Assembly: GCF_024748615.1 (NCBI RefSeq)
Contig: NZ_CP087168.1
Coordinates: 4,588,001-4,652,000, forward strand
From: Pseudomonas sp. B21-048
GTDB taxonomy: Bacteria; Pseudomonadota; Gammaproteobacteria; Pseudomonadales; Pseudomonadaceae
Reading direction: 5' to 3'
Length of the DNA: 64,000 nucleotides
The notes beneath the pieces are model-generated. The model was not told the DNA's origin. It did not search any database and worked only from the letters and a program-made list of their open reading frames with translations. The position numbers were made by a program, and so were the translations under genes. Shown here in pieces: positions 61,443 through 64,000 of the stretch (its first letter is position 1; every line of letters starts with the position of its first letter).

Positions 61443-62087
61443 TCAGGCTCGCACAAAGGGGTTACCGCGCATTTCATCGCCCAGACGCGTGTCTGGACCA
61501 TGACCGGTCACCACCGTTGCCTCTTCATCGAGGGTATACAACCGTTGTTTGATCGAACGCACGAGTGTCGCCTGATCGCCGCCCCATAAATCTGTGCGCC
61601 CTACCCCGCGCTTGAACAGCGTATCACCGGCAATCAGCAGCTTAGCCTCTGAAAACCAAAAGCTCATGGAACCCGGCGTATGACCCGGCGTGTGCAACGC
61701 CACGCCACACCCGCAAGCCAGCTCTTCGTCGTCGGCCAACCAGCGATCCGGCGATGGCACCGGCGTGTAAGGCACGCCGAACATCTGGCATTGCATCTCC
61801 AGATTGTCCCAGAGGAATTGATCTTCTTTATGCAGGTGCAGGGTCGCGCCGGTCTTTTCCTTCAACTGACCAGAGGCCAGAAAGTGATCGAGGTGTGCGT
61901 GAGTATGAATGATGCTGACCACCTTCAGGCCCAGGGCGTCGAGGCGCGCGAGGATCAGTTCATGGTTGCCGCCTGGATCGACGACGATGGCCTTCTTGGT
62001 GATGGGGTCGCCGATGATTGTGCAGTTGCACTGCAAAGGGCCGACGGGGAAGGTTTCGCGGATGAGGACCGTATTCGGGGTTTCCAT
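61443..62087 (-). CDS. Metallo-beta-lactamase-fold hydrolase (glyoxalase II/YcbL type)
   Basis: 214 aa. Metal site motifs: HTHAHLDH, a His in the loop ALHTPGHTPGSM, and the Asp in LLIAGDTLF; C-terminal VVTGHGPDT supplies the last His. YcbL-like stand-alone glyoxalase II. Probably hydrolyses a thioester, but substrate is unverified. Upstream gap of 104 bp to the divergent kinase gene. Confidence 0.9.
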   Translation of the reverse strand: METPNTVLIRETFPVGPLQCNCTIIGDPITKKAIVVDPGGNHELILARLDALGLKVVSIIHTHAHLDHFLASGQLKEKTGATLHLHKEDQFLWDNLEMQCQMFGVPYTPVPSPDRWLADDEELACGCGVALHTPGHTPGSMSFWFSEAKLLIAGDTLFKRGVGRTDLWGGDQATLVRSIKQRLYTLDEEATVVTGHGPDTRLGDEMRGNPFVRA

Positions 62088-62191: not shown

Positions 62192-64000
62192 ATGCCCCCT
62201 CCAATGGAACACGTACTTGTCGATAAAAGCGTCCTTTTCCTGGACCCGGACATTATCAACCGCATTCGCGGCAAAAATGGACTGCCTTTTATCTCCCACT
62301 CCGATCTTCTAGAGCTTCAGTCCCTGACCAAAGGGCTTGAGCAGGTCCACAAAAACGCTCGACAGTTTTTCCAATTCTTCGCCAGTCAGCCTTCCCGATC
62401 GCACCGCGCACTCCCTAAAGGTACAGCACTGCGTCCCGGTGATTTGCTGGCTGAATGCGCGTTTGATGGCCATCCGATCTTCTTCCTAAAGCGAACGACA
62501 GAGCCACAGGACCAGACTCCTTCCGGTGATGCCGTCGATTTTTGCCGTCACTACGACCTGTTGTTACTGACTTGCGATGAGGCGCAACTTACTCAGTGCA
62601 AAGCCACTGACGCCAGAGCTCAACGCTGGATCGGCCGTGCGGAAAAAAACGGGGAAGGCACTTTGCCGCCGATCATGCCTTTCGAACTCCCCCAAAAGCC
62701 TCTCACTACCGCCGACAGTCGTATCCATAACAAAGGCGCAAGCGTCACGGAAAGTTCGGTGGTAACGACGTCTAGCGGCCGCCGGTTGACCCTGAACAAA
62801 TCCATCAGCTCCGGTGGCGAAGGAACGATCTACGCAGTGGCAGGAAATGCAGAAGTATGCAAGATCTATCACCCGGAGAAGCTCACTGAACGCCGCCGCA
62901 AGAAGGTCGAGCTTATGGTGACGCGCCGAGTCGTTGAGCCTGGTATTTGTTGGCCGAATGAGCTGGTTTTCAATACGCAGAAAGAGTTCGTCGGCTATGT
63001 CATGCCTCGTGCGGAGGGGAAAACCCTTCAGGCCACGGTATTTGTCAAACCCTTGTTGGCAAGAACGTTTCCGCGCTGGACGCGACGAGATCTGGTGAAT
63101 GTCGCGGTTGCGTTTCTGAAACAGGTGCAATACCTGCATTCGCTGAACATCATTGTGGGCGACATCAACCCGAACAACCTGCTTGTGACACCCGACAGTA
63201 CTAAGGTCTGGATGGTCGATACAGACAGCTTTCAGATCGATCATTTTCCCTGCGAAGTTGGCACCGTGCCTTTCACCGCTCCAGAGATCCAGGGAGAAAA
63301 GTACGGCAACTACCTGCGTACCAAAGATCACGAGTTGTTTGCCATTGCCACCATGCTGTTCATGATCATGCTGCCAGGTAAACCACCCTATTCCCAACAG
63401 GGTGGCGGAACGGCGGCCGACAACATCAAGAACATGAATTTCCCTTATCGATTTAAAAAAGACAGTGGCAAAGGCAAGGTAAGCGTCACGCCGGTGGGTG
63501 CTTGGCAGCACATTTGGAGTCATTTGCCGTATCCGCTCAAGCAGGCCTTCAGCAACACGTTCGAAGATAATCAGCGACAACCGATCGGTGATTGGTTGAC
63601 GCTACTGACTCAGTACGGCGAAGAGTTGCTCAAGGGCAAGCATAGCGATGAGTTGTTCCCCGCCGCTTTCCATATCAACAACCCGGTCGAGGCTGTCTGC
63701 GGTAGTTGCAAAAAAACTTACACCGAATCCAAGGCCTGGCTTAAGAAAAGACAAGCCGTGGGTGGATCAACTCAATGCGCAGACTGTCAGAAGGCATCCA
63801 AACTGAAAAAACTGGCCCGTGAAAGCCAAAAGAAAACCAAGCTGGCAGAACAGCGTGCGGCGCCACCTCCGGCGGCCACCACGCCTCAGCCGAATCCAAC
63901 GCCGGTACGTAATATAGCGGCACCTGCACCTGCACCTAGACGCACTGCGCCGGCCACTGCCACCGTACGCCAGGCATCGACAAGACCGCAGCAACAGCAG
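62192..64000 (+). CDS. PIN-like / protein kinase / zinc-ribbon fusion (partial at right edge)
   Basis: At least 603 residues, open at base 64000. ATG 62192 follows AGGAAGCC. Residues ~5-140 look like a PhoH-type PIN domain (VDKSVLFLDPDII, LLELQSL, nAr, LLLLTCDEAQ), with Lys replacing the usual Thr after the first Asp. Kinase core from ~200: G-loop SGGEGTIY (~206-213), VAIK-Lys in EVCKIY, catalytic loop GDINPNN (Asp 324) replacing HRD, DTDSF (from 343) replacing DFG, then FTAPEI. CGSC (503-506) and CADC (529-532) form a zinc ribbon, then a Lys-rich helix and an Ala/Pro-rich tail. YegI/TerY-P-type kinases have such altered HRD/DFG. Confidence 0.85.
   Translation, partial: MPPPMEHVLVDKSVLFLDPDIINRIRGKNGLPFISHSDLLELQSLTKGLEQVHKNARQFFQFFASQPSRSHRALPKGTALRPGDLLAECAFDGHPIFFLKRTTEPQDQTPSGDAVDFCRHYDLLLLTCDEAQLTQCKATDARAQRWIGRAEKNGEGTLPPIMPFELPQKPLTTADSRIHNKGASVTESSVVTTSSGRRLTLNKSISSGGEGTIYAVAGNAEVCKIYHPEKLTERRRKKVELMVTRRVVEPGICWPNELVFNTQKEFVGYVMPRAEGKTLQATVFVKPLLARTFPRWTRRDLVNVAVAFLKQVQYLHSLNIIVGDINPNNLLVTPDSTKVWMVDTDSFQIDHFPCEVGTVPFTAPEIQGEKYGNYLRTKDHELFAIATMLFMIMLPGKPPYSQQGGGTAADNIKNMNFPYRFKKDSGKGKVSVTPVGAWQHIWSHLPYPLKQAFSNTFEDNQRQPIGDWLTLLTQYGEELLKGKHSDELFPAAFHINNPVEAVCGSCKKTYTESKAWLKKRQAVGGSTQCADCQKASKLKKLARESQKKTKLAEQRAAPPPAATTPQPNPTPVRNIAAPAPAPRRTAPATATVRQASTRPQQQQ

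Follow-up and report, generated by a model that had tools for sequence, protein, structure and literature searches.

The right-hand end of the window (the whole 64,000-nucleotide stretch analysed here, G000:C1:4588001-4652000) carries a gene for a protein that joins a PIN domain, a protein kinase domain and a zinc ribbon, and the genes for a von Willebrand A (vWA) protein and a PP2C phosphatase follow just beyond the window edge. Read from an ATG at position 62192 on the forward strand, the frame stays open for 603 codons up to the edge, and when it was read on in the genome, the gene continued past the window, confirming the long, truncated frame described in the earlier note. Several starts are possible: 62192, with a purine-rich AGGAAG just 5' of it, and the alternatives 62138 (656 aa) and 62204 (634 aa), the last being where the database copy P0001 begins. 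Residues are numbered here from 62204; those of the earlier note are 4 higher. The features, with the basis of each, are as follows.

62192..64000, forward strand: gene of the PIN-kinase-zinc-ribbon protein, ending at L002:2108 (genome 4652108); ORF, homologues
62204..62629, forward strand: PIN domain, residues 1-142; AlphaFold2 models, Foldseek, VIA, conservation
62756..63643, forward strand: protein kinase domain, residues 185-480; PF00069, Foldseek, invariant residues
63659..63853, forward strand: zinc ribbon, residues 486-550; Cys pattern, ordered in the model
63854..64000, forward strand: start of the disordered Pro/Gln-rich tail, which continues past the window; pLDDT
62068..64000, no strand: left part of a 3.6-kb inserted segment; empty-site blastn, GC content
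L002:2133-2807, outside the window, co-directional with the kinase: vWA gene, 224 aa; PF00092, 4.6e-10
L002:2811-3608, outside the window, co-directional with the kinase: PP2C phosphatase gene, 265 aa; PF13672, 1.6e-49

A chance frame is ruled out by the invariant residues and dN/dS values reported below. Promoter and terminator scans at the locus gave no excess over shuffles.

The kinase domain was recognised by Pfam (PF00069, E 4.7e-9) and by Foldseek (a match of the kinase part to CaMKII, E 1.7e-11), and its residues K220, D320, N325, D339 and D341 are present and invariant in alignment A1, which comprises 70 of 120 listed homologues (of 1319). The YegI-type kinase of the earlier note is borne out, the domain being homologous to YegI of E. 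coli (26% identity, E 9.8e-28; profile E 2.3e-40). Behind the kinase lie two cysteine pairs, C499-x2-C502 and C525-x2-C528, all four invariant across the 70 rows, in a region that is ordered in the AlphaFold2 model; since a Pfam search of the protein gave no zinc-ribbon match, the name zinc ribbon rests on the cysteine pattern. The tail that follows has pLDDT below 50 at residues 577-620, and a short helix occupies residues 620-633 beyond the window. This terminal helix (L002:2061-2105) is modelled with pLDDT of about 50-60, in several relatives, too, the tail is followed by a short terminal stretch of hydrophobic and basic residues, and such a helix could make contact with the membrane or a partner.

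The three genes are co-directional and tightly spaced, with gaps of 24 bases between kinase and vWA and 3 bases between vWA and PP2C. The vWA protein matches E. coli YegL (41%, 9e-45) and the phosphatase matches E. coli PphC (28%, 1e-14); by eye, the former retains the vWA DxSxS motif and the latter the PP2C Asp motifs. Thus, the PP2C and vWA genes that the earlier note had predicted lie directly downstream of the kinase, and the contrary outcome that it had named, genes of a quite different kind such as a secretion-system operon, did not occur. In PADLOC, the match of the vWA protein to the TerY model was weak (E 0.041), and the kinase matched best the PD-T4-6 models (1.2e-8), with an STK_OB match (2.1e-6) over residues 317-388 only.

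The triad sits in an insertion. When four empty-site loci were compared with L002 by blastn, homology ended at L002:66-67 (window 62066-62067), a break that falls within the 5' end of the adjacent metallo-beta-lactamase-fold gene, and resumed at L002:3667-3694, outside the window, leaving an insert of about 3.6 kb that contains the triad only and has a MalT-like regulator as its right neighbour. Of 12 other Pseudomonas genomes holding the left neighbour, 6 have the two flanking genes directly side by side, and in none of the 12 was the triad found in the roughly 1.5 kb beside that neighbour. The GC content of the insert is 54.6%, against 59.2% for the window, and none of 117 overlapping equal-sized tiles is as low. 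The departure in gene order remarked on in the earlier note therefore holds relative to the empty-site Pseudomonas genomes, the comparison not being with P. aeruginosa specifically; in L004 and L005, judged by ORF order, the triad occupies the position that it has in the window. Carriers are rare and comprise the own genome only among 95 relatives and 3 of 298 Pseudomonas genomes, own included, and in wider samples 1 of 369 and 2 of 398 genomes beyond the own one match, in the kinase part only. A scan of genome contigs gives no census, since the best 80 of its 256 matches are mostly cyanobacterial and confined to the kinase part. No relative of P0010, a protein whose PIN site is naturally intact, was found in viral contigs; phage records gave two matches, both confined to the kinase part; 22 plasmid records match, no match spanning more than 80% of the query, and a DNA search of the triad against plasmids returned no match.

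Twelve PIN-kinase loci were examined (L002, L004-L010, L012 and L084-L086), and vWA and PP2C genes adjoin the kinase in all of them, recognised by eye in L085 and in a different order in L012. Their PIN domains were assigned on different grounds: Pfam matches exceed the cut-off in L007, L084 and L085 and fall short of it in L010 and L086, L004-L009 were assigned by BLAST against the PIN of the window protein, and L012 by alignment only. The hosts are Pseudomonas, Roseateles, Thermoflavimicrobium, Lachnoclostridium, Paenarthrobacter, Fusobacterium and Lysinibacillus, the loci of Paenarthrobacter (on a plasmid typed conjugative) and Lysinibacillus being plasmid-borne. Not every such triad requires a PIN, as some triad kinases do without it, e.g., the 329-aa kinase of a related Photobacterium triad (L087), which has no room for one.

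Some relatives are elaborated further. L012 holds two kinase, two vWA and two PP2C matches in 12 kb, like two joined triads. P0069, P0070, P0085 and other relatives of about 810-865 aa have added Sel1 repeats (PF08238), which in P0069 precede the PIN. In two long Bacillota kinases (L014:6342-9641 and L019:6036-9611), a diverged PIN-like stretch is preceded by a helical N-terminus that contains an RN-x4-H-like motif and is HEPN-like by eye, for which Pfam gave no such match. A separate gene immediately upstream of the triad in Fusobacterium (L085:4364-5287) encodes a helix-turn-helix (a weak HTH_3, below cut-off) and, by eye, a second PIN-like region.

TerY-P triads consist of a TerY-like vWA protein, a PP2C phosphatase and a Ser/Thr kinase with a C-terminal zinc ribbon (Anantharaman 2012, via PMC11090510), and have been hypothesised to act as metal-sensing phosphorylation switches (PMC11090510). 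Read from its sequence, the locus is composed of these same parts (vWA, PP2C and zinc-ribbon kinase), and it shares with TerY-P triads the compact operon, the patchy distribution and the defence genes near some relatives; it differs in the N-terminal PIN of its kinase and in that no restriction genes are seen, on ORF reading, beside the window copy. Two TerY-P sets resemble it as stand-alone kinase/phosphatase/vWA systems: the anti-phage STK_OB system, whose kinase ends in an OB fold (Gao et al. 2020, via PMC11090510 and PMC7699616), the window kinase having a probable Cys-type ribbon in that place, and a P. aeruginosa variant that is likewise anti-phage, with most cells surviving and some dying (PMC10889362). 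In actinobacterial GAP1-N2 systems, a zinc-ribbon kinase, a PP2C phosphatase and a stand-alone vWA protein are also encoded by adjacent genes, but there the set accompanies GTPase-centred systems, and the portion of PMC7159879 consulted mentions no PIN on the kinase. The YegI-PphC-YegL set of E. coli, homologous in all three proteins, is a more distant relative, as YegI, reported to be membrane-bound (PMC13232886), has no PIN or zinc-ribbon profile match and the gene order differs. A PIN-kinase TerY-P triad was not found described in the open-access literature searched; Anantharaman 2012 and Gao 2020, outside that scope, may hold such a description.

The PIN domain was not found directly by Pfam on the window protein and was identified through structure (AlphaFold2) and relatives. 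As Foldseek with the full model gave kinases among the 50 matches listed, the PIN was modelled alone, which gave a full fold at high confidence, supported as a PIN by Foldseek and VIA, with SMG5 and SMG6 among the structural matches. The PIN-like nuclease domain of the earlier note is thus recovered as a fold, and the failure to find a structural match, which would have counted against it, did not occur. The human proteins SMG5 and SMG6 have PIN domains that complete one another (PMC12923823). The window PIN resembles them in its fold and its incomplete catalytic site; it differs in being fused to a kinase, and no second PIN-kinase was found in the genome (one match). Two strands of the PIN, 80-87 and 90-97, form a beta-hairpin, seemingly absent by alignment from the other (Fusobacterium) branch, that carries D80 and R97.

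Active PIN nucleases have four acidic metal ligands. The state of these bears on a reading built on the earlier note, in which the PIN works as an RNase effector whose cutting the kinase and PP2C toggle through phosphorylation in a stress or anti-phage response. The window copy keeps D7, E37 and D125, with Ser107 at the 'ND' position, so that the set of four acids is incomplete. Of the 68 rows of A1 left after two without an N-terminus were dropped, 32 have the full set of acids (7, 37, 107 and 125) and 36 lack one or more of them, 5 of the latter having an alignment gap at 107 and two being counted as lost by the gap alone; taken singly, the acids are kept in 68, 42, 33 and 60 of the 68. D107 is lost in 35 of these rows, the kinase residues being invariant, and E37 is replaced by Lys in 2 of the 7 rows closest to the window. 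The surroundings of the site follow the same division: an 11-residue shell scores 9-11 in the 32 intact rows and 1-7 in the 36 others (35 of them at or below 5), with 3 of 11 in the window copy, the high scores of the intact rows being partly by construction because the positions were chosen from those rows, so that the bimodality and the tree test are the informative part. On a tree of the kinase domain, the intact/lost label needs 4 parsimony changes, 2 of them forced by well-supported branches, and the AU test rejects a tree that unites the 36 site-losing rows in a single clade (p 2.1e-5). In a sample centred on a Fusobacterium protein (the top-listed of 1467 matches, 1 of 120 dropped), D, E, D and D stand at these positions in 118 of 119 rows, which are mutually related, all being at least 60% identical to one protein; the kinase Lys is Gln in 1 of 120. 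The acid counts, the bimodal shell, the tree changes and the AU test suggest that the ancestor probably had an intact nuclease site, which would have been lost on more than one occasion.

For an RNase effector speak the PIN fold itself, the intact acids of the other branch and of nearly half of the nearer rows, the three ligands that the window copy retains and PIN RNases validated in other defence systems (PMC13092281). An altered or rearranged active site is possible in the window's clade, as D7 and, mostly, D125 and E37 are kept and 7 of the 8 rows of this clade, the window included, have an acid two positions beyond the missing one (D/E109; D109 in the window). Against cutting stand the worn shell, the Lys at position 37 in close relatives and the widespread loss of D107 beside an unchanging kinase, and cleavage by the window protein is doubtful because its shell is mostly gone while the kinase residues are invariant. 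Of the earlier interpretation, then, the PIN, the YegI-related kinase, the vWA and PP2C partners and the break in gene order stand, and phosphorylation-controlled RNA cleavage is weakened, since the shell is mostly gone in the window copy and its closest relatives; in relatives that keep the site intact, it is plausible. A PIN that does not cut ranks ahead of one that does for the window copy, and the RNase-effector reading is retained as a tentative, rather doubtful alternative.

A second alternative is that the locus is a physiological signalling unit of the YegI/PphC/YegL type with no defence role, its PIN being structural or regulatory. Each of the three proteins has a relative in the chromosomal set of E. 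coli, no condition promoting yegI/pphC expression was found according to the portion of PMC13232886 consulted, and the window site lacks the look of a defence island: as judged by ORF reading, the window copy lies among ordinary genes, at the site shared by L004 and L005. This reading is at odds with the sparse distribution and clean insertion of the triad, its plasmid carriage in Paenarthrobacter and Lysinibacillus, the defence activity of the TerY-P triads that have been tested (PMC10889362) and the company kept by relatives at other sites. Three of the 4 such relatives (L006-L009) have defence genes upstream, at distances of about 1 to 8 kb: GajA and GajB about 1 kb upstream in L009, LmuA and LmuB 2 to 6 kb upstream in L008, and PDC-S08 and part of BrxL 4 to 8 kb upstream in L007; of the 12 flanking proteins of L006, the 4 examined singly gave no defence match. 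The scan (A4) covered the 55 flanking proteins of L006-L009, leaving out the flanks of L004 and L005, listed 25 of 139 families and was repeated singly for 20 of the 55 proteins. This proximity is suggestive only, as the counts are uncorrected for background defence-gene density. Overall, a purely physiological unit appears unlikely.

The PIN, though worn, is still under constraint. By a custom Nei-Gojobori script, dN/dS of the window copy relative to L004, L005 and L089, in that order, comes to 0.11, 0.17, 0.13 in the PIN, 0.12, 0.10, 0.11 in the kinase and 0.40, 0.50, 0.57 in the tail; for the zinc ribbon it is saturated against L005, the other values being 0.21 and 0.28. P71, D80, R97, Y117 and W142 are unchanged in all 36 site-losing rows. 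That the PIN half is decaying without a role, with the kinase triad alone mattering, could draw on the faster fall of PIN identity among site-losing rows (0.285 in site-losing pairs vs 0.469 in intact pairs at 50-60% kinase identity, the pairs not being independent of one another, with no such difference in the zinc ribbon, 0.355 vs 0.343), but is very improbable given dN/dS close to that of the kinase, a full fold modelled at high confidence and five residues kept throughout. From the low dN/dS and these five residues, the sequence data are most simply explained if the worn PIN is retained for something other than its original chemistry, such as binding or regulation.

We therefore favour, with modest confidence, an acquired, self-contained TerY-P-like triad with a PIN on its kinase, in which the PIN of the window copy most likely does not cut but serves the kinase as a sensor or regulator. 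This reading starts from what the sequence contains, namely, three tightly spaced co-directional genes, intact kinase residues and the PP2C and vWA motifs, and would work as follows: (i) at rest, the PP2C phosphatase would keep the kinase and its targets dephosphorylated; (ii) phage attack or stress would switch the kinase on through a signal sensed by the PIN and the zinc ribbon, probably a bound nucleic acid but perhaps another infection signal; (iii) the vWA protein would serve as an adaptor linking the partners; (iv) the kinase would be the conserved output, and its phosphorylated targets would stop the infection or protect the cell, which would give the triad a putative role in defence. 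The ancestral PIN was probably an RNase effector, of whose catalytic shell the window lineage has lost the greater part, and RNA cutting by the PIN may also take place in relatives whose site is intact.

To conclude, the signal and output of TerY-P triads are not demonstrated in the portions of the literature covered here, and a PIN that is intact in some lineages and worn in others offers a natural experiment that sets RNA cutting against sensing and against phosphorylation alone. More speculatively, the triads may represent a widespread immune or stress kinase family in which a fused RNase domain was repeatedly turned into a non-cleaving nucleic-acid sensor, with the phosphatase as off-switch and the vWA protein as adaptor. 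If true, this sensor-kinase family would be a bacterial parallel to the kinases switched on by foreign RNA and would add repeated enzyme-to-sensor conversion to bacterial immunity.
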